From a virus: 27,717 nucleotides of DNA. The stretch is taken from the IMG/VR virus record IMGVR_UViG_3300042321_001003, positions 1 to 27,717 of that record; one strand, 5' to 3'. A model generated the notes under the pieces. It had not been told where the DNA came from. It saw only the letters and a list, made by a program, of their open reading frames with translations, and made no database searches. This document shows positions 1 through 27,717 of this stretch, piece after piece. The translations under genes were made by a program, and so were the position numbers. The first letter of the stretch is position 1. Every line of letters starts with the position of its first letter.

Positions 1-64
1 GGTGCGCCTCGAAACCACACACGCACCCCTGCTGGAGACCACCAATGCCAACCCCGAAGCCTGA
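1..64 (+). CDS. Portal protein, C-terminal fragment (first copy)
   Basis: This is the last 20 codons plus stop of the portal gene, read from base 2 and cut by the start of the window. It is identical to the end of the complete portal gene at 26774-26836. The protease start codon at 45 lies inside it in another frame, so the two genes overlap by 20 bases. It is not a broken gene: it exists because the window goes slightly more than once around a circular map. Confidence 0.9.
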   Translation, partial: VRLETTHAPLLETTNANPEA

Positions 65-575
65 AACCCGTGCCCTCGGCACCCTCGCCCCCGCCGCCGA
101 CCTGAAGGTGCGCGGCTACGCCGTCGTATGGGAACCCGCCTACGACATGGGTCGCGAGATGGAGCGGGTCGATCCCAACGCCTTCGCGCGCTCGATGGAA
201 GAGCCCGGCGACATCGCCCTGCTCTGGAACCACGATACCGGCAAGCCGTTGGCCCGGGTGCGCGCCGGCAACCTGCGCCTGTTCACTGACGCCACGGGCC
301 TCGGCTTCGAGGCCACCCTGCCAGACACCGCGACGGCCCGCGAGGCCCACGCCCTGGTCGAGAGCGGCGTGGTGACGCAGTGCAGCTTCGGCTTCATGGT
401 GCGGGCCGAGAAGTACGAGAAGGGCGTGGACAAGCCCACGCGCGTGATCCTCGACGCCGACCTGCTGGAGATCAGCCTCGTGACCTTCCCCGCGAACCCG
501 GCGACCAGCGTCGAGGCTCGCGAGGCGCAGGCCGAGACCGTGCGCCGCACGATCCGGCTCCTGCCGCCGCGTTGA
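45..575 (+). CDS. HK97-family prohead protease (allele 1)
   Basis: This 176-residue serine protease would cleave capsid scaffold domains inside the prohead during maturation. The expected catalytic residues of the HK97 gp4 family are visible: His63 in LLWNHDTGKP, Ser114 in TQCSFGF and an acidic Glu142 in LLEISLVTFPANP. The length is normal for the family. A GGAG lies upstream of the ATG, and the start overlaps the portal end, so translation is probably coupled. The gene recurs at 26817-27347 with about two dozen base changes, of which only two alter the protein (R99H and T165A). That pattern indicates purifying selection between two real strain alleles. Its substrates are probably the two capsid proteins that follow. 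Confidence 0.93.
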   Translation: MPTPKPETRALGTLAPAADLKVRGYAVVWEPAYDMGREMERVDPNAFARSMEEPGDIALLWNHDTGKPLARVRAGNLRLFTDATGLGFEATLPDTATAREAHALVESGVVTQCSFGFMVRAEKYEKGVDKPTRVILDADLLEISLVTFPANPATSVEAREAQAETVRRTIRLLPPR

Positions 576-801: not shown

Positions 802-1827
802 ATGGAGAAGAAGAACCAACTGGATCGAAATGGCGAGGAGTACCGCGGGCTGTTCCAGCGCTACCTGCAGCACGGTCAAGGACGCATGACCGATGCGGAA
901 GTGCGCGCCCTGAGCAACAGCGGCACCGGACTCGGCAACGTCATCGCCCCCACTGGCTGGAGCGATTTCATCGAACTGTCGATGCGCCAGGACACCATCC
1001 TGAGCCGCGTCCGCAAGGTGAATACCGCCGGCAAGTTCACGCAGATCATCAACGTGACCGACGCGACGGTCAACACCAACCAGACCGAAACCAACATCGG
1101 CACCGAGTCGTGGACTTCCGGCACGGCGCTCGCACTGCCCCAGCAGGGCTTCGGCGGCAGCACGACCTACACCTTCAGCCTGAAGAAGATCACCGCCTGG
1201 ACCAAGGTCACGAACGAGCTGCTGGAGGATTCAACCGCCGCCGCGAGCATCGAGGAGTTCATCCGGGCCGAACTGGTTGCCGAACTGATCACGCAGATCA
1301 ACTCTCAGATCCTGATCGGCGACGGCAGCACCGGATGCCAGGGCGCGTTCAACTCGGCCAGGGCATACAGCCGCACCGCCAGCACTGGCGTGGCGACGAC
1401 CAACAAGCCCAGCGACATCCTTGCCGCAGCCTGGGCATCGACGAACAGCGCGCAGTCGCCGCTGGCATTTGAGTCGTGGAAGAACTCGGTCGCGGTCATC
1501 AACAGCCGCCTGACCGGATCGTTCGACAGCACCTTCTTCCCGCCACTGTTCCCGCTGTTTGCCGGAAACATGGAGACCGGGACATCTGTCGAAGGTCTGC
1601 CCACCATCTATCACCGCCTGTCCGCCACCACCCCGGCAGCCGGCGACACGCTCGTGATGTTCTTCGATCCCAGCAAGTACCTGCTGGCGACTTCGATGCG
1701 CGACTTCACCGTCACGCGTCTGACCGAGACTTTTGCAGCAAACGACCAAACGGCATTCGTCGCCAGCGTGCGAGCGGACGGTTGCCTCCTTCACACCAGT
1801 GGCGTGCTCAACGTGAACCGCGCCTGA
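802..1827 (+). CDS. HK97-fold major capsid protein 1 (short delta domain)
   Basis: This 341-residue protein looks like an HK97-family capsid subunit. After a short N-terminal segment it has RALSNSGTGLGNVIAPT (residues 35-51), nearly matching RALSEGGTGLGDIVAPT in the next gene. It continues with P-domain and A-domain type sequence, such as LKKITAWTKVTNELLEDS and ILIGDGSTGCQG. Only about 38 residues precede the presumed cleavage site, whereas the second capsid protein has about 130 with a helical delta domain. If both are cut at the matching site, the mature lengths are about 303 and 307 residues. A CGGAG ribosome-binding site lies 6 bases before the ATG. It could be a second shell subunit, a minor or vertex capsomer, or a duplicated copy. 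Family assignment is firm; role is inferred. Confidence 0.88.
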   Translation: MEKKNQLDRNGEEYRGLFQRYLQHGQGRMTDAEVRALSNSGTGLGNVIAPTGWSDFIELSMRQDTILSRVRKVNTAGKFTQIINVTDATVNTNQTETNIGTESWTSGTALALPQQGFGGSTTYTFSLKKITAWTKVTNELLEDSTAAASIEEFIRAELVAELITQINSQILIGDGSTGCQGAFNSARAYSRTASTGVATTNKPSDILAAAWASTNSAQSPLAFESWKNSVAVINSRLTGSFDSTFFPPLFPLFAGNMETGTSVEGLPTIYHRLSATTPAAGDTLVMFFDPSKYLLATSMRDFTVTRLTETFAANDQTAFVASVRADGCLLHTSGVLNVNRA

Positions 1828-1853
1828 CCACTCCGCACGAAAGGAAAGACACC

Positions 1854-3167
1854 ATGAAGAACTACAAGGAACTGCGCGAGGGCAACGACGCCCGCTACCG
1901 CGCCATGCAGGAAATGATCGAGTCGGCAAACGCCAACGGCGGCGACATGAGCGCCGAAGAGACCAGCAAGTTCGACGCGCTGAACGCCGAGTACCGCAAG
2001 GTGCAGCAGCAGATCGAGCGCAACCACACGCTGATGGGCCTCGCTGCCAAGGACAAGGACGCGGCCTTCATCGACGTGGGTCCAGACGCACCCGAAGTGC
2101 GTCGCGCACCCGCAGCTCGCGAGACCGCTCAGCGCGCCCCGCGCTTCGGCGACTTCCGCTGCAGCGATGATTTCATGCGCGCCTACGAGACCTACCTCAA
2201 GCGCGGCGAGCACACCCCGATGGCCGAAATGCGCGCTCTCTCTGAGGGTGGCACTGGCCTCGGCGACATCGTCGCCCCGACTGAGTTCCAGAGCCGCATG
2301 TCCGAACTGCTGCAGAAAGTGGTGACCCTGCGCAAGATCGCGACCGTGATGCCGCTGGGCTCGTGGAAGCGCGACATCGCAATCGAAAGCGCCCTTGCGA
2401 GCGTCAACTGGACGACCGAAGGTTCCTCAATCACCGACTCGCTGGCGACCAACCCGACGTACAGCAACGTGGTCCTGCAGCCCAAGAAGCTCGCCGGCCG
2501 CGCCGTTGTGAGCCGCGAACTGATCGACGATGCACCTGCTCGCGGTCCTGGCTTCTCGATCGAGAACGTGATCACGAACAGCTTCGCGAAGGCGTTTGCG
2601 CAGACCGAAGAGGACGGCATGCTGAACGGCACCGGCGCGTCTGGACAGCCCACGGGCATCCTGACCATCGCGTCCAGCGGCCCCAGTGTGGGTAAGCAGC
2701 TGGCAGCGAATACGGCAATCACTTCCGCCGAGGTGATCGATTTCGTGTACAGCCTGGGTCGCGAGTATCGCCAGCATCCCAGCGCTGCGATTCTGCTGTC
2801 CGATACGGCTCTCGGATACATCCGCAAGGCCGCAGCGACTGGCGCCACCACGCAGCTCGGCTACTTCTGGCAGCCCAGCGGCGTCCTCGGCGAGCCCGAC
2901 CGCATCCTGGGCATCCCGGTGTACGCCTCGGCCTACGTCCCCGCGCCGGCCACCACGTCTCAGGGCTACGCCAGCGGCGGCGGCATCTGCGGCATGATCG
3001 GTGCATTCGACTACTGCGTCATCGGCGAGCGCTCCGGCTACAGCCTGCGCGTGCTGAATGAGCTCTATGCCGCGAATGACCAGGTGGGATTTGTGTGTAC
3101 GAACAGGCTCGACGTGAAGCTGACGAACATGTCGGCGTTCAAGTACCTGCGCGGAGCGGCCAGCTAA
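1854..3167 (+). CDS. HK97-fold major capsid protein 2 (full delta domain)
   Basis: This 437-residue protein has classic HK97 capsid architecture. Residues 1-65 form a charged, helical delta (scaffold) domain, followed by an Ala/Arg linker and the presumed cleavage region at MAEMRALSEGGTGLG (residues 123-137). The mature domain contains hallmark sequences such as VNWTTEGSSI, LQPKKLAGRAVVSRELIDD and LNGTGASGQPTGIL. The ATG at 1854 was chosen because AAAGGAAAG lies just upstream and the gap to the previous stop is 26 bases. An upstream extension in the same frame would overlap capsid gene 1 and lacks such a site. This is the better candidate for the principal shell protein, because only it carries a normal assembly domain. 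Confidence 0.93.
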   Translation: MKNYKELREGNDARYRAMQEMIESANANGGDMSAEETSKFDALNAEYRKVQQQIERNHTLMGLAAKDKDAAFIDVGPDAPEVRRAPAARETAQRAPRFGDFRCSDDFMRAYETYLKRGEHTPMAEMRALSEGGTGLGDIVAPTEFQSRMSELLQKVVTLRKIATVMPLGSWKRDIAIESALASVNWTTEGSSITDSLATNPTYSNVVLQPKKLAGRAVVSRELIDDAPARGPGFSIENVITNSFAKAFAQTEEDGMLNGTGASGQPTGILTIASSGPSVGKQLAANTAITSAEVIDFVYSLGREYRQHPSAAILLSDTALGYIRKAAATGATTQLGYFWQPSGVLGEPDRILGIPVYASAYVPAPATTSQGYASGGGICGMIGAFDYCVIGERSGYSLRVLNELYAANDQVGFVCTNRLDVKLTNMSAFKYLRGAAS

Positions 3168-3230: not shown

Positions 3231-3434
3231 ATGCGAGTCAAGATGCTGCAAACGGTCGGGACTGCAGACGAGGGCTTCGGCGAGGGCCAGGTCTATGACC
3301 TGAGCGAATCGCGTGCAATTGAGTTCATGTCTCTTGGATGGGCCGAGCGCGCCGACGTTCACCCAGACCAGCCCGAAGCGTGCGTGAAGCCGGAGTGCTG
3401 CAAGGCAACAAAAAAGGGAGCAAAGCGATGCTGA
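3231..3434 (+). CDS. Small hypothetical protein between capsid and SGNH genes
   Basis: This 67-residue protein starts at ATG 3231 behind AAGGAG, 4-5 bases away, directly after the capsid hairpin. The N-terminal part (residues 1-45) looks like a small folded domain, with the sequences VKMLQTVGTADEGFGEGQ and YDLSESRAIEFMSLGWAE. The C-terminus is cysteine- and lysine-rich (VKPECCKATKKGAKRC). The stop overlaps the next gene's ATG at 3428. Short proteins at this place in HK97-like phages are often head-associated, but I see no motif that assigns a function. Confidence 0.75.
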   Translation: MRVKMLQTVGTADEGFGEGQVYDLSESRAIEFMSLGWAERADVHPDQPEACVKPECCKATKKGAKRC

Positions 3435-4843
3435 TCACATGGCGACGCGAGTCACGCAGAACAGGCCCGGGCGTTTACGGTTCAGAAACAGCGTGCCGGT
3501 TCATCAAAGACCTGGCATCCGGAACCGATTCGCTCGATCTCGTCATCATCGGAGATAGCAACACGGGTTTCGCACCCGCTGGCATGTGGGGCTACAACAG
3601 CGGCTTCCAAGAAGCACTCAAATTGAAGGGCTGGACATGCTACGGAACGCCTGTGCTTCCGATCATGGATGACTACACCAGCAACTACAACTTGAATGTT
3701 GGGAGCGGTGAAATTTCTATAAAGGTGGCAAACGGCAACTGCCTGAACGGAAATACATCCGGCGGCTCTACTGCGTTTGCTGGCTGGACTCCAAGCGTCA
3801 GCGGCTCTCTCACATATGTGCGCTATGGGAGCACCAGTAGTACACCTGTGTACAAACAGGCATGGGCATACATCTCATCGACATCCTCAAACGCATATCA
3901 GGATCATTATCACGGCATGACGATTAACTCCTCGCACCCGCTGACGAGCAACGCCTTGACCATTTGGTACCGAGTTCGATTCGGCACTTTTGCTACTGGA
4001 TCTGGGAAGTTCCAGCCAAATGTGCGAGGCGAACTTGAGGCAGCACCTTGGACCGTTACAAACATCGCTCGTTCAAGTGTTGTAAATACAAACACAGGCG
4101 CGTCATCGTTTGCAGTTACGGAGCATTCGTTCACCCCAAGGAGTGGTGAATCTCAGCGCGCGTCACCGTTTGGAGATGGCAACTCCCAAAGCGTCGGGCC
4201 AATCGCAATTCATTCCCAATCGATGTATTGCAAGCGCAAGGGGTGGGCTGTTCATTCTCACGGATACTTCGCGGGATACACCAGCACAGAAATTGCCTCG
4301 CAGATTTCTGCGACTGGCAGCACCCTGCTGCAAACACAATTGCAGGAATTGCGCGAGCGTCAGATTGCTGCCGGAGGAACTGGGCGCGTTCTGATTTTGA
4401 TGCACAGCGGTATCAACGGAAATGATACAAGTTCAACATGGACCGCGGCGCATATCAGCGTTTGGAACACCTACAAGGCGGCGTGGACTGCGCTCGGGTA
4501 TCCCGCATCAGACCTTGCAATCGTTTCGTGGGTTGGAGTACCTCGCAATTCTGATGACAGTAGTTCATCCGGTTCAGCTGGAAACCTCGTCGCTGTTCGT
4601 GCTGCTGCGAACGAAATGGTGCAAACCAACACCGACATGACGGTGGTGGATGTCAAGCAGTTCCTGAACTATGCGCAATGCAATCGGGGAACAGGCGGCA
4701 CCAGGACTTACTATTCCACCGCAAACACCGTGCATCTGAGCGGCGGATATTTGTCCGGCTCGTTCCCAACTGGCACAAAGGACACCAGCGATGGCTACAC
4801 CATTGCCGCGGATTTGATTCTCAACGCATTGGTGACTGCATGA
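3428..4843 (+). CDS. SGNH/GDSL-hydrolase-like protein, AT-rich insertion in head module
   Basis: This 471-residue protein carries the spaced blocks of an SGNH hydrolase. Ser44 lies in IIGDSNTGFA, glycines in HSHGYFAGY (residues 276-284) could serve block II, Asn332 lies in LMHSGINGND, and His436 lies in TANTVHLSGG. The usual Asp of the DxxH block is replaced by Asn433. Known SGNH enzymes remove acyl or acetyl groups from polysaccharides, lipids or peptidoglycan; the substrate here cannot be read. The ATG at 3428 has AGGGAGC upstream and overlaps the previous stop. The gene uses many A/T-ending codons, unlike its GC-rich neighbours, and interrupts the normal capsid-to-connector order, which suggests acquisition by transfer. 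It may be a virion-borne decoration enzyme or a lysis or depolymerase factor. Confidence 0.7.
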   Translation: MLITWRRESRRTGPGVYGSETACRFIKDLASGTDSLDLVIIGDSNTGFAPAGMWGYNSGFQEALKLKGWTCYGTPVLPIMDDYTSNYNLNVGSGEISIKVANGNCLNGNTSGGSTAFAGWTPSVSGSLTYVRYGSTSSTPVYKQAWAYISSTSSNAYQDHYHGMTINSSHPLTSNALTIWYRVRFGTFATGSGKFQPNVRGELEAAPWTVTNIARSSVVNTNTGASSFAVTEHSFTPRSGESQRASPFGDGNSQSVGPIAIHSQSMYCKRKGWAVHSHGYFAGYTSTEIASQISATGSTLLQTQLQELRERQIAAGGTGRVLILMHSGINGNDTSSTWTAAHISVWNTYKAAWTALGYPASDLAIVSWVGVPRNSDDSSSSGSAGNLVAVRAAANEMVQTNTDMTVVDVKQFLNYAQCNRGTGGTRTYYSTANTVHLSGGYLSGSFPTGTKDTSDGYTIAADLILNALVTA

Positions 4844-13188: not shown

Positions 13189-13347
13189 GTGGGGCTCCTC
13201 CAGAAGCGCGCACGATAGTGCTCGCGAGGCACGGCGACAAACAGAAGAATCTGCTGCGTTTTTCAGGCTTTTATGATGGCTTGCGCGATTGTGAATAACT
13301 TTCCGCGTCACCAAATCAAGGTACGTTCCGCACTAGTTTTGCTTGGA
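13189..13347. promoter_or_regulatory. Divergent intergenic region between membrane protein and integrase
   Basis: This gap should hold promoters for both neighbours. It contains imperfect palindromes at 13218-13232 (GTGC TCGCGA G GCAC) and 13242-13256 (CAGAAGAATCTGCTG, 12 of 15 positions symmetric). The 12-mer at 13242-13253 recurs exactly at 20090-20101 in the dyad of the replication region. The region is visibly more AT-rich than its surroundings. No strong sigma70 promoter is evident for the integrase direction. Confidence 0.45.
13292..13319 (-). promoter_or_regulatory. Weak candidate promoter for the minus-strand gene
   Basis: On the minus strand, TTGATT (13319-13314) and TATTCA (13297-13292) are 16 bases apart and would drive transcription toward the gene starting at 13188. 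Each box matches consensus at only about four of six positions, so this is a low-grade prediction. Confidence 0.25.
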
Positions 13348-14715
13348 ATGAAGGTCCGGGTGACGTTCGAGTTCGATCTGGGTGATACGGTGCATGCGGA
13401 GCCATGCTTGGAGACGCCTCGTGTCATTACCCCCCCCCCCCCCGTTTTTAGCGCAAAAACAGGGGTAGACCTTCTCACGCAGGTCGATGCGTGGATCGTT
13501 GCCACCCGCGAGCTCGACGGGCAGGCCGAGATGCACGTCCGCCAGGCTGCGCGCTGGGTGCGCGACTGGCTGGAGCATGTGAAGGCGAACGCCCGCGAGA
13601 TCGGCCCAGCCTCCTGCATCGAGTGGCTGCGCGATATGACCCGCGAGGCCACGCTCGCACCGCAGACAATTCGCAACCGAATGAGCGCGTGCAGGCGCTT
13701 CGCCGGCTGGCTGCTGATTCAGGGGCTCATCGACTCGAACCCGTGGGCGCACGTCCCCAGCCCGCGCGGGCGCGCTGGTCAAGGGCGCGACGCATTCACC
13801 GACGCTGAGGTCGAGCGCCTGATCGCCCACGCGCGCGAACAATCGACGAAGGGCGCGTCGCCAGCCATCCGCGCGAGCGCGCGCAACAGAGCGAACCTGT
13901 ACCGATTCCTCAGCCTCACCGGCCTGCGCCGCGGAGAAGCGCATGCGCAGCTGTGGGCCGACGTGGACCTCGATGCTGGCACGCTGGTGGTCAGCCTGGA
14001 CAAGGCCCGCCGGCGCGACAACATCCCGCTGGCGAGCGCCGCGGTGGAACTGCTGCGCGAGATGCGCAAGGCGAAGGACGGGCCGAAACTGTTCAAGCGC
14101 ACCGTTTCCTACAAGGGGCTCGCGACCGATCTGGCGGCTGCAGGGCTGTCCGGGCGCTACGGATTCCACAGTTTCCGCTGCGGATACATCACGGAATCCT
14201 TCGAGAACGGCACACCGCCTGAACTTATCCAGCGCCTGGTCCGGCATCGCTCTATCGACCAGACACACCGATACTTGCGTCACCGGGAGCCCCGCCTGCG
14301 GGAGGCGGCGGAGAGCCGCTCAGGAAATTTTGAGAAATTGGGGACCACGAAACCTAGTGCGGCCGATAGGTTTCACTCGGAATCAACGATGGCCTACGGC
14401 GCATCCAACACTGCGAACACTTCGACGACCAGCGCGAGCTACGCGCCCGAGGCCGTTGATTCCATCTCTCGCGCTGGTCTTCGAGCTGCTCGCAGCCGTT
14501 CGGTCCCGTCTGCTGAAAAGTGGGCGCTACAGGATTCGACCCGTTGCCCCCACCTACGGGCTGAACGGCTTCTGGAAGCGGCGCTGATGCTAACGCAGGC
14601 GGGTCACCGTGAAGGTGCCCTCGTGCTGATGCACCACGCCCAGATGCTGCTCACGCAGCAGGGAGCCACTGATGGAACAGGCGATGGAACGCCTCCGATG
14701 GGGGCAGGTCGTTGA
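13348..14715 (+). CDS. int: Tyrosine recombinase / phage integrase with poly-C tract
   Basis: The catalytic set of a tyrosine recombinase is complete: Arg in SLTGLRRGEAH, Lys in SLDKARRRDNIPL, His and Arg in YGFHSFRCGY, His in VRHRSIDQ and the Tyr nucleophile in THRYLRHRE. An N-terminal SAM-like core-binding domain precedes it (VRQAARWVRDWLEHVKANA). From ATG 13348 the product is 455 residues; ATG 13273 would add 25, and neither start has a strong binding site. The frame crosses 14 consecutive C at 13430-13443, so a one-base change there would destroy it. About 115 residues follow the catalytic Tyr, far more than usual, and this tail covers a tRNA-like sequence. The enzyme would integrate the phage at a host attachment site. 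Confidence 0.82.
   Translation: MKVRVTFEFDLGDTVHAEPCLETPRVITPPPPVFSAKTGVDLLTQVDAWIVATRELDGQAEMHVRQAARWVRDWLEHVKANAREIGPASCIEWLRDMTREATLAPQTIRNRMSACRRFAGWLLIQGLIDSNPWAHVPSPRGRAGQGRDAFTDAEVERLIAHAREQSTKGASPAIRASARNRANLYRFLSLTGLRRGEAHAQLWADVDLDAGTLVVSLDKARRRDNIPLASAAVELLREMRKAKDGPKLFKRTVSYKGLATDLAAAGLSGRYGFHSFRCGYITESFENGTPPELIQRLVRHRSIDQTHRYLRHREPRLREAAESRSGNFEKLGTTKPSAADRFHSESTMAYGASNTANTSTTSASYAPEAVDSISRAGLRAARSRSVPSAEKWALQDSTRCPHLRAERLLEAALMLTQAGHREGALVLMHHAQMLLTQQGATDGTGDGTPPMGAGR
13430..13443 (+). repeat. Homopolymer of 14 C inside integrase coding region
   Basis: The run encodes part of ITPPPPVF between the start region and the recombinase domains. Replication slippage here would switch the frame. 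The next in-frame ATG after the run is at about 13530, inside the core-binding domain. Confidence 0.9.
14521..14545. other. tRNA-T-arm-like sequence, candidate attachment core
   Basis: ACAGG (14529-14533), a 6-base loop ATTCGA and CCCGT (14540-14544) resemble the reverse complement of a tRNA T-arm, with one mismatch in the stem and one base missing from the loop. Many phages keep the 3' part of a tRNA gene as attP next to the integrase gene. The rest of a tRNA cannot be folded here, so this is only a candidate. Confidence 0.35.
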
Positions 14716-15043: not shown

Positions 15044-15225
15044 CGCAGCAGCAGGTGGCAGACGTGCTCGGCGTGAGCCGCTCGGTGGTCAAGAAGCAGG
15101 AGCGCATCGCCCTGTCAAAGTTCGCAGACGCGATCGTCGAGCTGGCGCTGGCGGACGAGCGCTTCATGGACATGCTGCAGGGTGCATTCCGATGCACGCG
15201 GGAGGCTTGCGATGAGTCTCGCTGA
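15040..15225 (+). CDS. Small helix-turn-helix protein (61 aa)
   Basis: The ATG at 15040 was chosen because it overlaps the previous stop as ATGA and has a run of G about 6 bases upstream; a GTG at 15016 is a weaker option. Residues 2-25 (TQQQVADVLGVSRSVVKKQE) read as a helix-turn-helix of the type found in sigma-factor region 4 and small regulators: a first helix, Gly turn, and a recognition helix SRSVVKKQ. The remaining residues form one more helix. It could regulate the recombination operon that follows at once. It is too short to be a classical CI repressor. Confidence 0.68.
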   Translation: MTQQQVADVLGVSRSVVKKQERIALSKFADAIVELALADERFMDMLQGAFRCTREACDESR

Positions 15226-16066
15226 CCTGCTCGCAACCCGCGTCGTCGAGAACATGCCGGCGGCCGAGTATCACGCGGTCGATGCGCTGGGCTCAAGCAC
15301 GCTGCGCAAGGTGCTCTCGGCGTCCCCCGCTCACGCGATGGCCGCGCTGCGCAACCGCGAGGAGACCGCCAGCCAGCGGCTGGGGACGGCCCTGCATGCT
15401 GCGCTGCTGGAGCCGGCGAAGTTCGAGGCCCAGATCGCCATCGCCCCCGAGTGCGACCGCCGCACGAAGGACGGCAAGGCGACGTGGGAGGCGTTCCAGC
15501 TGCAGGCCGAAGGCCGCACCGTGATCACCGCCGACCAGGGCGAAAGCCTGCGCGGCATGGTCGAGGCGGTGCGGGCGTCGAAGGCAGCTGCCGGGCTGCT
15601 GCGCATGGCCGACAAGCGCGAGGTATCGCTGTTCGCCGCGGACCCCCTGACGGGCCTGCCGATCAAGGCACGCCTGGACGCATGGGCGCCGGGCGACCGC
15701 GGCGAGTTCATCGTGGACATCAAGACCACGAGCGGGCTAGCGTCGCGCAGCGAGTTCGAGCGCACGCTCGCCTCTTACGGCTACGGAGCGCAGGCCGCGT
15801 TCTACATGCGCGTGGCGCGTGCTGCCGGGCTGAAGGTGTCGGAGTTCATCTTCATCGCGGTCGAGACCAGCGACCCCTACGGCGTCGGCTGCTACGCGCT
15901 CGACGAGGAGATCGTCGCGCTGTTTGAGCCCGAGGTCGATCGTGCGATCGGACTGTGGGCCGAGGCTGCACGGTCGCGCGTGTTCCGGGCCTACCCCGAC
16001 GAAGTGCAGAAGCTGGGCGCGCCGAAGTGGCTGCGCCGTCAACTGGAAGAAGGAGTCGCAGCATGA
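15212..16066 (+). CDS. PD-(D/E)XK exonuclease, RecE/YqaJ-like
   Basis: This 284-residue nuclease probably degrades one strand of double-stranded ends, giving the single strands used by the Bet protein encoded next. Visible core elements are His62 in GTALHAALLEP, Asp156 in IKARLDAW and the Asp169-x-Lys171 pair in FIVDIKTTSG, followed by the helix with Gln in SYGYGAQAAFYMR. This arrangement is typical of phage PDDEXK exonucleases of the RecE C-terminal and YqaJ groups. ATG 15212 lies behind GGGAGG and overlaps the previous gene by 14 bases. The length is normal for the family. Confidence 0.85.
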   Translation: MSLADLLATRVVENMPAAEYHAVDALGSSTLRKVLSASPAHAMAALRNREETASQRLGTALHAALLEPAKFEAQIAIAPECDRRTKDGKATWEAFQLQAEGRTVITADQGESLRGMVEAVRASKAAAGLLRMADKREVSLFAADPLTGLPIKARLDAWAPGDRGEFIVDIKTTSGLASRSEFERTLASYGYGAQAAFYMRVARAAGLKVSEFIFIAVETSDPYGVGCYALDEEIVALFEPEVDRAIGLWAEAARSRVFRAYPDEVQKLGAPKWLRRQLEEGVAA

Positions 16067-18085: not shown

Positions 18086-20029
18086 ATGACCACAACCGAC
18101 ACCGCAGCCGCAGCCATCGAGGCCGCGTACCAGCTGCTCGGATTCATCTTCGACGCCGACGACCTGATCGAGTTCCGCACGCTCGGCAAGGTCGTCGGCT
18201 CGACCTGGGCGAAGCAGCGCGACGCCGCGCAGGCCATCGCGAAGCTCGCGACGCTGGGGCACGGCACGCAGGTCTACTTCGGCGCCAACCCGCGCAAGCG
18301 ACGCGGCGGCAAGGCCGACGACGTGGGTTTGGCGAGGTGCCTGTTCGCAGACTTTGATGGCGGCACCACCGTCGAGCAGGCACGCATCCGCTGGAGCGAG
18401 GCGTGCATCCCAGAGCCCACCGTGATCGTGATCACGGGCGGCGGCGTGCATGCGTGGTGGAGGCTGCAGGAGCCGATGGAAGACTTGGCCCTGTGGACGC
18501 AGCACCAGAAGGCGCTCGCCCGCCGGCTGGGCTCTGACCAGTCTGTGACCGACGCGCCGCGCATCATGCGCCTGCCGGGCTTCGTCAACTGGAAGTATCA
18601 GCACCAGCCCCTGTGCGTGGTCGAGAACTGCGACCCCGACAACGCCTACAGCCTCGACGAGTTCCCCGACCCGACGCAGTTCGGCGAGCCGGCGGCGGCA
18701 CCCGTCGAGCCTGAGCCCGTCACCGCGGGCACCCTGAGCGACCTGTCGCGGCGGTTCTTGGAGAGCGGCTACCTGATCCCCGGGCGTGGCCGGCGGGACA
18801 CGATCTACACGGTCGCCTGCGACATGCGGGCGCGCCAGTGGCGCCAGGGCGACGCCGAGGCGGCGATCCTGAACCGCGCACGGGCGCTGGGCCTGACCGC
18901 CGACGACCTGCTCGACCTGCCGAGGCAGATCGGCAACGCCTTCGCGAAGGAGCGCACGCCGATCCTCGGGCGGGCTGAGGAGGCGCAGGTGGTCGTCGAT
19001 CAGCCGCCAGAGACGCCGCCCGTGGGCATCCGCGAGCTGCTGCAGCGCAACCCGAAGGTGCGCCGACCGATCGTGCACGACCTGCTGCGCTCGGCCGAGA
19101 CCATGAACATCATCGCCGCGCCGAAGACTGGCAAGTCGTGGATGGTGATGGACCTCGCCCTGTGCGTCGCGACGGGCCGCCCGTGGTTCAATCGGTTCAA
19201 GGTCGAGCGCTCGCCCGTCCTCCTGATCGACAACGAGCTGCACGAGGAGACACTCGCCGACCGCCTCCAGCGCGTCGTACAAGCCAAGGGGATCGCTCTG
19301 GACGATCTGGACGGGTGGCTAGAGGTGAAGAGCCTGCGCGGTGCCCTGAAGAGCTTCAAGAGCCTCGTCGAGGACGAGGACGGCAAGAAGGGCATGCTCT
19401 GCGCCGAGAAGGTGAAGCCCGGCCAGTACGGCATGGTGATCTTCGACGCCTTCTATCGGTTCAACTGCGACGACGGGGCAGACGAGAACGACAACGCCTA
19501 CATGGCGCAGACCTACAACGGCTTGGACAGGCTCGCCAAGCGCCTCGACGCCTGCCTGGTCTGCATCCATCACACCTCGAAGGGCAACCAGTCGGACAAG
19601 GCGGTGACGGACGTGGGAGCCGGCGCAGGGTCGATGAGCCGCGCCGCGGACACCCATCTGGTGCTCCGCGAGCACGAACTGGCCGGGCACCTCGTGATCG
19701 ACGCCGCGACGCGGTCGTGGAAGCCGCTGGAGCCAACTGTGGTGCGTTTCGAGTACCCGCTGTTCCATCCGGAGCCCCTGCTGGCCCCGACCCTGAAGAA
19801 GAAGGCCAAGAAGGACGACGGCTGGAACGTGGAGCGGTTCGTGGACGAGGTGGTCGGCACCTCGGAACTGAGCACCGACGAGATGCTGGCACGAGGCAAG
19901 GAGCGCGGCCTGAGCGCCTACCGGGTGAAGGAGTTCCGGCGCGAGGCGACGGCTGGAACTGGCAAGCGCGGACCCCTGCTGGAGGTGCTCGGCGAAGCCC
20001 GAAATGTCACCTACCGGAGGTCACGATGA
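18086..20029 (+). CDS. Primase-helicase fusion (AEP-like primase + RecA-like ATPase)
   Basis: This 647-residue protein probably starts and unwinds replication forks. The N-terminal part has primase-polymerase landmarks: the metal-binding FADFDGG (Asp89, Asp91), ITGGGVHAWWRL with His122, and DAPRIMRLPGFVNWK (156-170). A middle linker with a small helical domain follows (220-290). The C-terminal part is a RepA/DnaB-type ATPase with Walker A APKTGKS (345-351), LLIDNEL (379-385), the Walker-B-like VIFDAF (451-456) and CIHHTSKG (493-500). A winged-helix-like tail closes the protein. ATG 18086 has AAGGA upstream. No separate helicase, primase or DNA polymerase gene is recognisable elsewhere. Confidence 0.85.
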   Translation: MTTTDTAAAAIEAAYQLLGFIFDADDLIEFRTLGKVVGSTWAKQRDAAQAIAKLATLGHGTQVYFGANPRKRRGGKADDVGLARCLFADFDGGTTVEQARIRWSEACIPEPTVIVITGGGVHAWWRLQEPMEDLALWTQHQKALARRLGSDQSVTDAPRIMRLPGFVNWKYQHQPLCVVENCDPDNAYSLDEFPDPTQFGEPAAAPVEPEPVTAGTLSDLSRRFLESGYLIPGRGRRDTIYTVACDMRARQWRQGDAEAAILNRARALGLTADDLLDLPRQIGNAFAKERTPILGRAEEAQVVVDQPPETPPVGIRELLQRNPKVRRPIVHDLLRSAETMNIIAAPKTGKSWMVMDLALCVATGRPWFNRFKVERSPVLLIDNELHEETLADRLQRVVQAKGIALDDLDGWLEVKSLRGALKSFKSLVEDEDGKKGMLCAEKVKPGQYGMVIFDAFYRFNCDDGADENDNAYMAQTYNGLDRLAKRLDACLVCIHHTSKGNQSDKAVTDVGAGAGSMSRAADTHLVLREHELAGHLVIDAATRSWKPLEPTVVRFEYPLFHPEPLLAPTLKKKAKKDDGWNVERFVDEVVGTSELSTDEMLARGKERGLSAYRVKEFRREATAGTGKRGPLLEVLGEARNVTYRRSR

Positions 20030-20208
20030 GCACTGATAACTATCTGTCGGTGAATCTGTCGGTGCAGACAGATACTCAAACAGATCGGGCAGAAGAATCT
20101 GTCGGTGCGTCCCTAAAGGGAACGCACCGACAGATTCGTTCTGCTGCCTGGGTGGACGAACAGATCGACCGACAGATCCGCCTCGGACAGAAAGCGGACC
20201 TTCGATGA
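20026..20208 (+). CDS. 60-residue protein whose gene carries the dyad and repeats
   Basis: The ATG at 20026 overlaps the primase-helicase stop as ATGA and has an excellent CCGGAGG site 5 bases upstream; its stop overlaps the next start. The protein is polar, rich in Gln, Asp, Ser and Thr, with short repeats (LSVNLSVQTDTQTDR, DEQIDRQIR) that merely mirror the DNA repeats. No fold or motif is recognised. The DNA seems constrained for its own sequence, so translation may be incidental or may serve to keep the operon coupled. Less GC-rich than its neighbours. Confidence 0.55.
   Translation: MSTDNYLSVNLSVQTDTQTDRAEESVGASLKGTHRQIRSAAWVDEQIDRQIRLGQKADLR
20043..20191. repeat. Iteron-like TCTGTCGGTG repeats, possible replication origin
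   Basis: TCTGTCGGTG occurs at 20043-20052, 20055-20064 and 20098-20107. Its reverse complement CACCGACAGA is at 20125-20134, with one-mismatch GACCGACAGA at 20167-20176 and a weaker CTCGGACAGA at 20182-20191. The cluster begins 14 bases after the primase-helicase gene ends. Repeated protein-binding sites near or within a replication gene are typical of phage origins. Confidence 0.6.
20089..20144. repeat. 56-bp dyad symmetry (large hairpin)
   Basis: Bases 20089-20094 pair with 20139-20144, 20095-20110 with 20122-20137, and 20111-20113 with 20118-20120. There are single unpaired bases at 20121 and 20138 and a loop of about four bases (TAAA). Two of the TCTGTCGGTG repeats form the central arms. 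It could extrude as a cruciform, be bound by a dimer, or act in RNA as a strong hairpin. It is not followed by a T-run on the + strand. Confidence 0.8.
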
Positions 20209-23005: not shown

Positions 23006-23482
23006 ATGGGCAAGAGAGGACCAAAACCAACGCCGACGAGCGTGCTGAAGTTCCGAGGAAGTGAGAAGGGCATGGCGCGCGAGGCTGAACCCGAGGGCAG
23101 CGACGGCCCCCCGCTGCTGCTGCCGTTCGTCGCCAGCGACGAGGTGGCGCGCCGCTACTTCGACCGCCTGATCGACGACCTGCGCCGGCTCGGTCTGTAC
23201 GCCGCAGAGGACTACCAGGCGCACAACGCGATGGCGCATGCGTCGGCCGAGTTTGAGCGGGCACAAGCTGCAGTGCAGGAAAAGGGGCTGGTCCTTGAAA
23301 CGCCGCATGGGTCTGTTATCAATCCGATGAAGAAGGCGCGCGATGATGCGAGGGCTGAGGTCGCGCGCCTGTCTCGCTGCTTCGGCTTGACGCCGAGCGA
23401 TCGTGTGGGCCTTGTGTCTTCCAAGAGAGCGAAGGGGGATGCCAGCGGGATCGAGTCGATCCTCAAGTCGAAGACGGCCTAA
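23006..23482 (+). CDS. terS: Terminase small subunit, P27 family
   Basis: This 158-residue protein begins GKRGPKPTPTSVLKFRGSEK, the typical opening of P27-family small terminases (GRxPKPT followed by LK and a G motif). The following helices (EVARRYFDRLIDDLRRLGLY, YQAHNAMAHASAEFERAQAA) form the DNA-binding and oligomerisation region. The small subunit recognises phage DNA and hands it to the large subunit. ATG 23006 was chosen because ACAGGAAG lies 5 bases upstream; the frame stays open upstream without a better site. It overlaps the large-subunit gene by 44 bases. Confidence 0.9.
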   Translation: MGKRGPKPTPTSVLKFRGSEKGMAREAEPEGSDGPPLLLPFVASDEVARRYFDRLIDDLRRLGLYAAEDYQAHNAMAHASAEFERAQAAVQEKGLVLETPHGSVINPMKKARDDARAEVARLSRCFGLTPSDRVGLVSSKRAKGDASGIESILKSKTA

Positions 23483-25076
23483 GCTCGCGCCCGTCGCGGG
23501 CTTCAACGCATCGGCAAACGCCGCGAAGGGCGACTGGTTCGACGTGGACGAACTGGCGCGCATCGACAAGTTCTTCGGCCTGCTGTCGCACCAAAAGGGA
23601 ATCTGGGCGGGCAAGGCGTTTGAGCTGCTGCCTTGGCAGCGTGATCTGCTCGGCTCGCTGCTGTGCTGGAAGCGCGCGGACGGCACCCGGCGCTTCCGCC
23701 AGGCGTACATCGAGGTGCCGCGTAAGAACGGGAAGAGCACGCTGGTCGCCGGCCTCGCGCTGTGGCTGCTGCTCGCCGATCGCGAGCCCGGCGCCGAGGT
23801 CTACTGCTGCGCGAGCGCGCGCGACCAGGCTGCGATCGTGGGCGACGCCTGCCGGCAAATGGTGCAGTCGAACCCGGCGCTCGCGAAGGCGGTCGAGGTG
23901 TTCCGCAACGTGATTACCTTCGGCAACAGCAAGCTTGAGATTTTGAGCAGCGACGCTGGCACGAAGCACGGCAAGAACGCGAGCGCGGTGATCTTCGACG
24001 AGGTGCACACCTTCGCAGATCGCGACCTGTACGACGCGATGGTGACCTCGATGGGCGCGCGCCAGCAGCCGCTGATCGTGTCGATCACGACGGCGGGCCA
24101 CGACCGCGAGAGCCTGTGCTGGGAATTGCATGCCTACGCCGAGAAGGTGCGCGACGGTCTGGTCGAGGATCACGCCTTCTACCCTGCGGTGTTTAGCGCA
24201 CCGATCGACGCAAACTGGAAGAGCCCGAAGGTCTGGCACAAGGCGAACCCCAGCCTGGGCGTGACCGTCACCGAGGCTTTCCTGCAGGGTGAGTGCGACA
24301 AGGCGAAGGAGCTGCCCGCCTACGAGACGACCTTCCGCCAGCTGTATCTGTGCCAGTGGACGGAGTCGAAGAAAGCATGGATCAGCACCGACGCCTGGGC
24401 GGCGTGCGCATCGAGCGATGCGACCGCCGAGCGCCTTGCCGGCCGCGAGTGTTACGGCGGGCTCGATCTATCGACCACCACCGACCTGTCGGCGCTGTCG
24501 CTGATCTTCCCGTGCGACGACGGCAGCGTGGACGTTCTGTCGTGGTCGTGGTGCCCCGAGGAGGGCATCCGCCGGCGCAGCCGCAGCGACCGCGCGCCGT
24601 ATGACGTGTGGGCCTTGAAGGGCTTCCTGCACCCCACGCCGGGCGCTGTGGTCGATTACGACTTCATCGCCGAAACGATCCGCCAGTGCTGCAAGCGCTT
24701 CGCGGTGAAGTCGATCGGCTTCGACCCGTGGAACGCGACGCAGCTCGCGAGCGGGCTGTACGGCGAGGGCGTGCCGATGATCGAGGTGCGCCAGGGCTAC
24801 CGCACCCTCAGCGAGCCGGCGAAGAAGCTGGAGTCGCTGGTGGTGTCGCGAAAGATCCGGCATCCGAACAACCTGCTGCTGAACTGGTGCATCTCGAACG
24901 TGGTCTGTGAGTCGGACCCAGCCGGGAACCTGAAGCCCAGCAAGGCGAGCAGCACCGAACGAATCGACGCAGCTGCGGCGCTGGTGACGGCGCTTGCGAC
25001 ATGGCTGCACCAGAAGCAAGACGCGACTGGACCGAGTGTCTACGAACAACCCGAAAGGACTATTACATGGCTCTGA
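23439..25076 (+). CDS. terL: Terminase large subunit
   Basis: This protein of about 545 residues is the packaging motor and nuclease. The ATPase domain has Walker A PRKNGKST (94-101) and Walker B VIFDE (184-188), preceded by an adenine-binding LLPWQRDLL stretch. The C-terminal RNase-H-like nuclease has acidic residues in GGLDLSTTTDLSAL, SIGFDPWN and ERIDAAAALVTAL. These match Terminase_1/HK97 gp2 proteins, and the length is normal. ATG 23439 has a purine-rich GAAGGGGG before it; a GTG at 23403 is the upstream alternative. It overlaps the small subunit and, by 10 bases, the portal gene. Confidence 0.93.
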   Translation: MPAGSSRSSSRRRPKLAPVAGFNASANAAKGDWFDVDELARIDKFFGLLSHQKGIWAGKAFELLPWQRDLLGSLLCWKRADGTRRFRQAYIEVPRKNGKSTLVAGLALWLLLADREPGAEVYCCASARDQAAIVGDACRQMVQSNPALAKAVEVFRNVITFGNSKLEILSSDAGTKHGKNASAVIFDEVHTFADRDLYDAMVTSMGARQQPLIVSITTAGHDRESLCWELHAYAEKVRDGLVEDHAFYPAVFSAPIDANWKSPKVWHKANPSLGVTVTEAFLQGECDKAKELPAYETTFRQLYLCQWTESKKAWISTDAWAACASSDATAERLAGRECYGGLDLSTTTDLSALSLIFPCDDGSVDVLSWSWCPEEGIRRRSRSDRAPYDVWALKGFLHPTPGAVVDYDFIAETIRQCCKRFAVKSIGFDPWNATQLASGLYGEGVPMIEVRQGYRTLSEPAKKLESLVVSRKIRHPNNLLLNWCISNVVCESDPAGNLKPSKASSTERIDAAAALVTALATWLHQKQDATGPSVYEQPERTITWL

Positions 25077-26836
25077 TCGACATCCTGCGCCGATACCTCG
25101 GCCCCACCCCGCCGCGCTCCGACTTTGAGGACACCGTGCCCATCGGCCAGCCGACAAGCGGCAGCGTGCAGTCTTACGTCCAGTCGTACTCCTACACGGG
25201 CGAGAGCATCACGCCGGCACGCGCGCTCGAAGCGCCGACCGTGTTTGCGTGCGTGCGCCTGATCGCCAGCAGCATCAGCCGCCTCGACTGGCAGGTTCTG
25301 CGGGAAACGCCCGAGGGCAAGGTCGCGGACAGCGAGCACCCGCTCTACAACCTGCTGAACTACGAGGCGTCAGACGACATCGGCGCGATCCAGTGGCGCG
25401 AAATGGCGCTGACATCGGCGCTGCTGACGGGAAACTTTTACGCCTACATCCACCGCGACAAAGCGGGCCGCCCGGTCGCGCTGGAGCCCCTGCGCAGCGA
25501 CTACGTCGCCATGTACCGCGACGGGGATAACCAGCCCTATTACCAAGTGTGGACGGGCAAGTACACGGGCAAGAACGAAGAGAAGGCCATGCGCCGCTTC
25601 CGCGGCTACGACATGTTCCACCTCGTCGGTCCGACCACGTTCGAGGGCATGCTCGGCGTTCCATTCATCCATCAGATGCGCGACCTGATCGGGCTGGAGC
25701 TGGAGGTCACGGAGTTCGTGACGCGGTTCTTCGCCCAGGGCGCAGTGCCCGGCGGCGTGCTGAAGATGCCGGGTCGCCTGAGCCCCGAGGCCAGCAAGCG
25801 CCTGCGCGATGCGTGGCAGGCGGCGCACGGTGGCGCGAGCCGCGCTGGCCGCGTCGCTGTGCTGGAAGATGGCCTGACGTATGAACCCATCACGCCGACG
25901 GCCCGCGATAACGAGCTGATCGAGATGCGGAAGTATTGCCGCCAGCAGATTGCGGCGGCGATGGGCGTGCCCGCGCACAAGGTCGGCGATACGGAAAGCC
26001 AGTCGTATTCCTCGAACGAGCAGGCCGACGCAGAGTTCGTGAAGCACACGCTGGCCGGCTGGGCGGCTCGACTGGAGCAGGAAGCCAGCCGCAAGCTTCT
26101 CCAGCGCGGCGAGCGCTACTGCACGCGGATCAACTTCGACAGCCTGCTGCGGGCCGACATGAGCACCCGCTACGCCGCCTACGCGGTCGCCGTCACCAAC
26201 GGCATTCTGACCCCGAACGAGATCCGCGCGCGCGAAGGTCTGCCGGCGGTCGAGGGTGGCGACAGCATCCGCCTGCCCATGAACACCGAGGCGCCCGGGC
26301 AGCCCGCTCCAGCGCCGAGCGAGCCCGCTGCGCCATCGGATGGCGTGCCCCCGTCTGTGGACGTGGAGCCCGAGGCGGTCGCTCCCAGCGTCGATCTCGA
26401 CGCGCAGGACGAGGCGTACAGCGCGGCGCGCGCGGCGGCGTCTGCGATGGCGGCCGTGCGTCCCGCGGTGGAGGGCGCCTTCCGTCGCCACCTCCAGCGG
26501 GTGTCGGACTACCTGCTGAAGCAGCGCACGCAGGCCAAGATCGACAAGTGGGAGCCGCCCATCGACTGCATCGACGACGACCTGCGCGCGACGGTGCGGA
26601 CGCTGGGCGGCCTTCTGGGCAACGAGGAGCGCGCCACGAAGGCGCTCGACGCGGCCCTCCTGCGCCATGCCCGCCACCTGCGCAGCGCGGTGACGGCCAT
26701 CGGCACCCTGTCTGAAACGATCGACGGCTGGCGCGACCTTCCCCAACTGGCGGCCGACGAGCTGCTGGAGATGGTGCGCCTCGAAACCACACACGCACCC
26801 CTGCTGGAGACCACCAATGCCAACCCCGAAGCCTGA
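25067..26836 (+). CDS. Portal protein with extended C-terminus
   Basis: This 589-residue protein has the core of HK97-type portals: ESITPARALEAPTVFACVRL, SSISRLDWQVLRETPEG, MALTSALLTGNFYAYIHRDK, and the late IAAAMGVPAHKVGDTESQSY clip/stem region. It forms the twelve-subunit ring through which DNA enters and leaves. It is longer than HK97 gp3 because of a Pro/Ala-rich linker (about 405-445) and a helical C-terminal domain of about 140 residues. That addition could help recruit scaffold or protease. ATG 25067 lies behind AAAGGA. It overlaps the terminase and protease genes. Confidence 0.93.
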   Translation: MALIDILRRYLGPTPPRSDFEDTVPIGQPTSGSVQSYVQSYSYTGESITPARALEAPTVFACVRLIASSISRLDWQVLRETPEGKVADSEHPLYNLLNYEASDDIGAIQWREMALTSALLTGNFYAYIHRDKAGRPVALEPLRSDYVAMYRDGDNQPYYQVWTGKYTGKNEEKAMRRFRGYDMFHLVGPTTFEGMLGVPFIHQMRDLIGLELEVTEFVTRFFAQGAVPGGVLKMPGRLSPEASKRLRDAWQAAHGGASRAGRVAVLEDGLTYEPITPTARDNELIEMRKYCRQQIAAAMGVPAHKVGDTESQSYSSNEQADAEFVKHTLAGWAARLEQEASRKLLQRGERYCTRINFDSLLRADMSTRYAAYAVAVTNGILTPNEIRAREGLPAVEGGDSIRLPMNTEAPGQPAPAPSEPAAPSDGVPPSVDVEPEAVAPSVDLDAQDEAYSAARAAASAMAAVRPAVEGAFRRHLQRVSDYLLKQRTQAKIDKWEPPIDCIDDDLRATVRTLGGLLGNEERATKALDAALLRHARHLRSAVTAIGTLSETIDGWRDLPQLAADELLEMVRLETTHAPLLETTNANPEA

Positions 26837-27347
26837 AACCCGTGCCCTCGGCACCCTCGCCCCCGCCGCCGACCTGAAGGTGCGCGGCTACGCCGTCGTT
26901 TGGGAACCCGCCTATGACATGGGTCGCGAGATGGAGCGCGTCGATCCCAACGCCTTCGCGCGCTCGATGGAAGAGCCCGGCGACATCGCCCTGCTCTGGA
27001 ACCACGACACTGGCAAGCCCCTCGCCCGGGTGCGCGCCGGCAACCTGCGCCTGTTCACTGACGCCACGGGCCTCGGCTTTGAGGCCACCCTGCCAGACAC
27101 CGCGACCGCCCACGAGGCCCACGCCTTGGTCGAGAGCGGCGTGGTGACGCAGTGCAGCTTCGGCTTCATGGTGCGGGCTGAGAAGTACGAGAAGGGCGTG
27201 GACAAGCCCACGCGCGTCATCCTCGACGCGGACCTGCTGGAGATCTCGCTCGTGACCTTCCCTGCGAACCCGGCGACCAGCGTCGAGGCTCGCGAGGCGC
27301 AGGCCGAGGCGGTGCGCCGCACGATCAGGCTCCTGCCACCGCGCTGA
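26817..27347 (+). CDS. HK97-family prohead protease (allele 2)
   Basis: This is the second copy of the gene at 45-575, with the same 176-residue length and the same catalytic His63, Ser114 and Glu142. It differs by about two dozen bases, nearly all at third codon positions; the protein changes are R99H and T165A. It begins inside the complete portal gene. In the actual circular genome only one protease gene is expected, and this is the version linked to the portal sequence assembled here. Confidence 0.92.
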   Translation: MPTPKPETRALGTLAPAADLKVRGYAVVWEPAYDMGREMERVDPNAFARSMEEPGDIALLWNHDTGKPLARVRAGNLRLFTDATGLGFEATLPDTATAHEAHALVESGVVTQCSFGFMVRAEKYEKGVDKPTRVILDADLLEISLVTFPANPATSVEAREAQAEAVRRTIRLLPPR

Positions 27348-27363
27348 CCCCCCCGCCCTTGCA

Positions 27364-27541
27364 TCGCGTTTTTTTGACGCGACAATGGCGGCCAATTGAA
27401 TACCTGCCGCGCGTGGGTGCCACTGCCTAGTGCATGCACACTACCGCGCGAGACAGACCTCCGTGCAGCCCTCGTGGCGCACTGGCCTGAGAAGCGGCTG
27501 TTGAACTGGAAGACAACACCGCCGGGCTAGTGCGCCTTTTT
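27364..27541 (+). ncRNA. Structured capsid-leader RNA, allele 2
   Basis: This is the same element as at 591-770. The terminator arms lie at 27476-27487 and 27525-27536, and the T-run at 27537-27541. Compared with allele 1, the P4 top pair is U-A in place of C-G and its internal loop has changed. One P2 pair is G-U, and linkers contain one- and two-base insertions or deletions. The P2 loop complementarity to the terminator arm is unchanged. Confidence 0.6.
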
Positions 27542-27572
27542 CGTCGCACCCCGGCGCTAACCGGAGACTGCG

Positions 27573-27717
27573 ATGGAGAAGAAGAACCAACTCGATCGAA
27601 ATGGCGAGGAGTACCGCGGGCTGTTCCAGCGCTACCTGCAGCACGGTCAAGGACGCATGACCGATGCGGAAGTGCGCGCCCTGAGCAACAGCGGCACCGG
27701 ACTCGGCAACGTCATCG
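27573..27717 (+). CDS. Major capsid protein 1, N-terminal fragment (allele 2)
   Basis: This is the first 48 codons of the capsid gene seen whole at 802-1827, cut by the end of the window. Only one base differs from the first copy (position 27593, a silent change in the seventh codon, CTC for CTG). The CGGAG ribosome-binding site and the RALSNSGTGLG cleavage-region motif are the same. Confidence 0.9.
   Translation, partial: MEKKNQLDRNGEEYRGLFQRYLQHGQGRMTDAEVRALSNSGTGLGNVI

Follow-up and report, generated by a model that had tools for sequence, protein, structure and literature searches.

A tandem pair of HK97-family capsid genes, one with and one without a delta domain, in small uncultured phages

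The capsid locus and its two proteins

Two capsid genes stand in tandem, 26 nt apart, downstream of the prohead protease gene in the 27,717-nt stretch of viral DNA analysed here (the window). Gene A (positions 802..1827, + strand) starts with ATG and encodes a second HK97-family capsid protein of 341 aa. Gene B (1854..3167, + strand) encodes a canonical major capsid protein (MCP) of 437 aa; its mechanical open reading frame begins earlier, at a GTG, and the ATG at 1854 was used. The protease (45..575, + strand) is a Peptidase_S78 (PF04586, E 2e-40; PHROG head maturation protease). The genes for the portal protein (25001..26836, + strand; PF04860, E 2e-95) and the terminase large subunit (23403..25076, + strand; PF20441 and PF03354) lie at the opposite end of the window because the window ends repeat. 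A self-comparison found positions 1-946 and 26773-27717 to be 96% identical over 946 bp, and this repeat holds the end of the portal gene, the protease gene (second, near-identical copy at 26817-27347) and the start of A. Very probably the record represents a circle of ~26.77 kb whose closure spans two strain variants; on this map the portal gene lies directly upstream of the protease gene.

Upstream of A is a 226-bp non-coding stretch (576-801) with a small inverted repeat (CGCGT-TTTTTTG-ACGCG), which recurs in the terminal copy (27348-27572). The capsid genes may have their promoter or leader here; Rfam had no match to this stretch, and scans for Rfam families, tRNAs and promoters yielded nothing of relevance. 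Between B and the head-tail genes lies a 471-aa ORF (3428-4843, + strand) whose GDSN...G start is reminiscent of SGNH hydrolases and for which neither Pfam nor PHROG gave a significant match. In L025, L027, L029, L088 and L104, all near relatives, the DNA runs directly from 3430 to 4840 without this ORF, which is thus a gain or loss among close relatives. The window also carries integrase and exonuclease VIII-like genes (13273-14715 and 15182-16066) and a primase/helicase-like gene (18086-20029), from which we consider the phage probably temperate. A near-palindrome of 56-58 bp (20089-20144) gave an opposite-strand match in self-BLAST.

Both proteins match PF05065 (Phage_capsid) over nearly the full model: A with E=4e-22 and 79.2 bits (model 2-275/280) and B with E=1e-42 and 146.8 bits (model 1-279/280), at a cut-off of 24.2 bits. 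Other A clades likewise match PF05065, and A and B both match PHROG major head proteins. These matches bear out the two tandem HK97-family capsid genes proposed in an earlier note made from the DNA letters. Single-chain AlphaFold models were poor (pLDDT 44.7 for A and 55.8 for B, from shallow alignments) and were used for fold-level matches only. The top Foldseek matches of the weak A model were HK97-fold proteins (E 5e-6, TM ~0.3), and the moderate B model gave an HK97-type match with E 1e-11.

Profile-profile comparison aligned A with B at a probability of 99.6% (E 5.6e-24, 24% identity over 299 columns), spanning the mature domain and the final stretch of the propeptide. As the earlier note had read, the two proteins share the pattern RALSxxGTGLGxxxAPT (AEVRALSNSGTGLGNVIAPT in A, AEMRALSEGGTGLGDIVAPT in B). 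In A, the putative cleavage-region motif RALSNSGTGLGNVIAPT occupies residues 35-51 (904..954, + strand) and is the core of the segment that co-varies with B; in B, the corresponding motif RALSEGGTGLGDIVAPT occupies residues 127-143 (2232..2282, + strand). There are 34 residues before the R of RALS in A and 126 in B. Counting to the end of RALS reproduces the ~38 and ~130 residues that the earlier note had placed before the motif, and a cut after RALS would yield exactly the predicted mature lengths of 303 and 307 residues, both of 32.2 kDa. When HK97 chains are aligned with B in the PDB search, extrapolation puts their mature N-terminus at about residues 128-131 of B, i.e., at RALS.

The proteins differ in what precedes the motif. 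The B propeptide (residues 1-126; 1854..2231, + strand) corresponds to the helical delta (scaffolding) domain that had been predicted: in the model, helices span about residues 2-27 and 34-69 (local pLDDT about 68-81) and have no counterpart in A. The A propeptide (residues 1-34; 802..903, + strand) is short and strongly conserved (L7, D8, R9, Y14, Y21, L22, G25, E33), aligns solely with the last part of B's propeptide and forms two short helices in the low-confidence model. A is thus without the helical delta domain present in B and typical relatives. A YL-x-x-G ahead of the motif is found in both proteins, as the earlier note had said. Its second pattern, M-x-x-x-RALS, is exact in B only; in A five residues separate the Met from RALS (M-x5-RALS), and relatives do not conserve this Met.

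Fourteen reference MCPs have long N-terminal extensions, and RAL-type related sequences are visible at the same place in several of them. By this comparison the motif is a family-wide signature, ordinary by itself, and B is the canonical form of the family.

Conservation and origin of the pair

Relatives were collected from IMG/VR using either protein, or an alignment of either, as the query. Counting each contig once, 130 contigs (window included) carry A and/or B. The two genes are adjacent in 115/115 distinct viral contigs that cover both positions (96 from a first set, including the window, and 19 found later and tallied by contig name). The remaining 15 contigs (4 with A only and 11 with B only) end within 124 bp of the partner's expected place. 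The order portal-protease-A-B holds, as far as present, in all 95 related contigs of the first set, and the later loci are alike. Searches led by B, which did not presuppose A, always recovered A too, and B identities within the set fall to about 40%. Scans of bacterial genomes returned no relative of A and, for B, only a distant Rhodobacteraceae capsid; among annotated phages and plasmids, none was found with the A/B pair.

A is an open frame in every contig covering it. Its dN/dS is 0.02-0.22 across 13 close or moderate pairs, and that of B is similar except in two pairs with exchanged B. A is an intact gene under purifying selection as strong as B's. Alternatively, A could be an assembly artefact or a redundant or decaying second capsid gene, decay being an outcome that the earlier note had thought would speak against its reading. 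The repeated window ends might hint at an artefact, but A extends past the end of the repeat and is not a product of it, and neither conservation in every contig with the pair, nor the open frames, nor the dN/dS values show any decay; we give this explanation practically no chance. In one contig (L144), B, portal and protease all appear frame-broken, and a sequencing error is the likelier cause of the broken B because the other two genes are broken too.

Phylogenetic analysis used a mixture model meant to resist long-branch artefacts, with the 14 reference MCPs, all from single-MCP loci, picked by likeness to B. A formed one clade (100/100) and B another (98/94), and A and B together stood apart from the references at 93/83; a further tree with these references was similar. 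The branch to A is long (1.1-1.5 changes per site vs about 0.3-0.5 for B). On this tree the A/B split is older than the whole group, and the pattern fits an ancient duplication before the group's radiation, with delta-domain loss in A followed by fast change. Loss in A is the more parsimonious course, given that the long N-terminal extension is shared by B and the references and that A and B group together. The scaffold loss that the earlier note had suggested is supported in this respect; the duplication, if there was one, would be ancient, and the family-wide motif gives no sign of a recent duplication. A may instead have been acquired from a related phage rather than duplicated in place, since some Heliusvirales MCPs score about as well against its profile (up to 75 bits) as B does (about 40-90 bits); the 93/83 grouping is not decisive between the two origins.

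Exchange of mature domains and co-variation at the junction

Comparison of close relatives revealed mosaic capsid genes. In L029, L084-L087 and L104, portals and proteases are 95-98% identical to those of the window and B propeptides 87-88%, but identity falls to 30-34% in mature A and to 49-51% in mature B. The DNA of L104 is 92-94% identical to the window up to position 915, just inside A's motif; past it the A body is not alignable, B is about 70% identical, and identity is 94.7% from position 4840. These identity profiles indicate that mature A and B were swapped, at boundaries close to the maturation site, between genomes that are nearly the same elsewhere, and that the propeptides stayed with portal and protease. 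Across 54-55 contigs, distances of mature A and mature B correlate when portal and protease are controlled (r 0.41-0.46, p 0.001). The partnership is not strictly one-to-one, since one A body type occurs with different B types; L025 and L027 combine a divergent A type with a window-like B.

The exchanges also bear on the possibility that A is an HK97-fold assembly factor or a subunit of the portal vertex, in low copy number or confined to the prohead. The position of A near portal and protease, and its short and conserved propeptide, are compatible with such a role. However, mature A is exchanged between genomes and the portal is not, and with B and protease controlled, mature A and portal distances are uncorrelated in the same 54-55 contigs (r -0.03). 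We consider this role for A quite improbable.

We compared own-genome with other-genome A/B identity in sliding windows across 27 representative genomes. Windows at the propeptide-mature junction had an own-genome excess of +0.05 to +0.08 (p 0.0005, the lowest value that this test can return), and the largest excess outside the junction was +0.028. Over 24 junction columns, own-genome identity was 0.529-0.539 vs 0.431-0.456 for other genomes. The junction block kept p values of 5e-5 to 3e-4 when the set was thinned from 27 to 9 deep lineages; as contigs are not independent, thinning and permutation reduce shared ancestry, part of which stays in these Mantel/permutation p values. Neither the remaining propeptide (p 0.97-0.99) nor the mature domain (p 0.40-0.85) had an own-genome excess, from 27 down to 9 representatives. 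Own-genome A/B likeness is clear in one region only, the ~24 residues around the motif.

A's motif varies together with B's motif (partial r 0.455, with protease, portal and A's own body controlled) and, after controls, with B's mature domain (partial r 0.494). Its correlation with the protease is null after controls (r 0.009), and that of B's motif with the protease is weak (r 0.213). Examples include RVLN-GTGGS in both A and B of L053, RAIS in both of L191, an identical two-residue deletion in A and B of L019, L042 and L048, and GTGLG in both proteins of the window. L025 and L038 have A bodies that are alike (dN 0.08), near-identical proteases and differing B types, and here the A motif follows B (SAGLGD with TAGLGD; SATGGA with TSGSGD). 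The N-terminus of the protease itself, ETRALGTLAP, was considered as a self-cleavage copy of the motif and rejected, as in relatives it does not change along with the A/B motif.

Co-variation at the junction inside genomes is what the idea of the same protease and the same shell predicts. We take it as pointing to a functional coupling of the A and B junctions, either as substrates of one protease or through N-arms that meet in the same shell. The shell-contact part is favoured because the protease is nearly constant between L025 and L038. The co-variation could come from N-arm contacts, or from old local conversion, rather than from protease specificity.

If local conversion between the two genes were responsible, likeness of the motifs within a genome would say nothing on joint function. 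Short runs of shared codons (CGC GTG TTG AAC in both genes of L053 and CGC GCA ATC AGC in both of L191) suggest conversion, as does the location of swap boundaries between phages near the junction segment. At identical residues, however, the own-genome codon excess is equal in the motif (0.505 vs 0.455) and in the mature domain (0.448 vs 0.396), so the motif has no special likeness at the DNA level, and the A and B motifs of L025 agree at the protein level but not at synonymous sites. The codon-level comparison gave no support to gene conversion as the sole cause, and we regard conversion as an unlikely source of the signal.

A proposed two-protein shell and its place among known capsids

Given the conservation of the pair and the co-variation at the junction, we think it quite likely that A and B both belong to one mature shell. 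Our preferred explanation as a whole, which we hold with somewhat less assurance, is that they are paralogous subunits of one capsid, both trimmed, with A likeliest at the vertices. B would be the main subunit, and its fused helical delta domain would scaffold the prohead. A, whose delta domain appears from the tree and the references to have been lost, would be carried into the prohead via contacts with B. The single S78 protease would trim both proteins at the conserved E-x-R-[AV]-[LI] junction, as the motif, its conservation and the homology to HK97 suggest, with A losing about 34-38 residues and B about 126-130. The products would be two ~32 kDa subunits with matched N-arms, the matching being seen as co-variation. 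By analogy with T4 gp24 among gp23 hexamers, A would be placed at the five-fold vertices; that it is specifically the vertex protein has, in our estimate, slightly less than an even chance.

All evidence for a mixed shell is shared by a reading in which A is not the penton but takes particular lattice positions (mixed hexamers, caps vs body of an elongated head, or additional positions) and gives the shell an unusual size. Genomes of 13.2-24.5 kb have been associated with T=4 and a 42-kb peak with T~7 (PMC7762592). The genome here (~26.8 kb with the 946-bp overlap removed) is above the T=4 range and well below the T~7 peak, and our own interpolation gives T about 5, which is not a classical quasi-equivalent number. 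Such a reading also draws support from one A clade (L011, L012, L014, L018, L036, L037), in which A alone has a ~75-aa insert at the presumed E-loop position, absent from B. The insert has two GSGYTSAPTVxFxGGGGSGATATA-type repeats, is beta-repeat-like, matches no Pfam family and looks like a built-in decoration domain. However, 27-kb genomes could also fit T=4, T=7 or elongated shells of one protein, and we judge a non-penton A to be rather unlikely.

Most tailed phages use one capsid protein at all positions, and the large and complex T4 is the textbook exception. In T4, gp23 and gp24 are about 20% identical, gp24 has a shorter propeptide and sits at the vertices, one protease trims both, and the pair is attributed to gene duplication (PMC9958956). 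A and B are likewise a paralogous HK97-family pair (24% vs about 20% identity) that always occurs together, A having the shorter propeptide as gp24 does. Unlike the large lytic myovirus T4, whose scaffold core is separate, the phages described here have ~27 kb, bear an integrase and fuse the delta domain to the main capsid protein. They also differ in combining an S78 protease with PF05065 capsid proteins; the putative vertex role of A is drawn by analogy. A and B match PF05065 only, and no gp23/gp24 was among the PDB sequence matches. The pair may be T4-like in its working, and is not a member of the T4 family.

The portal-protease-MCP order, the S78 protease, and the delta domain and cleavage-region motif of B are as in HK97 gp5/gp4, and profile and fold searches recovered HK97 chains for B. 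Unlike HK97-type phages, in which one capsid protein makes hexamers and pentamers, these phages have two capsid proteins. By sequence, B's nearest solved structure is the capsid of the Rhodobacter capsulatus gene transfer agent (Rcc01687; profile E 1e-31). A matches it weakly by profile (E 5e-6), and it is among the top fold matches for both; the R. capsulatus agent, however, has a single capsid protein. The nearest annotated MCPs to B are those of Heliusvirales and Streptococcus temperate phages (e.g., Dorea phage NatCom_31361, Javan261), at about 30% identity, and the nearest to A are those of Heliusvirales, at about 27%. The Heliusvirales and Streptococcus phage loci that we inspected have one MCP gene between the protease and head-tail genes, in contrast to two here. 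For other HK97-type phages with two MCPs, the open-access literature yielded T4 and T4-like cases, and also a Bacillus phage whose annotation names 'two distinct major capsid proteins', in a passage of its source that gives no structural proof (PMC12786184).

In a bolder reading, which we hold somewhat less likely than not, small integrase-bearing phages of a widespread and uncultured lineage make an HK97 shell that always needs two proteins, a scaffold-bearing subunit and a riding paralog. The mature pair would be exchanged as a module while the propeptides stay with portal and protease, and the shell size may fall between T=4 and T=7. The recombination pattern indicates that capsid shells are swappable with boundaries near the maturation site. 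If the shell does contain both proteins, these phages would provide a second, independent two-subunit case beside T4, in ~27-kb genomes with a fused delta domain. They would also offer a simple system for asking why two subunits are used and how a scaffold-less subunit is counted into the prohead, and for following the separate evolution of propeptides and mature shells.
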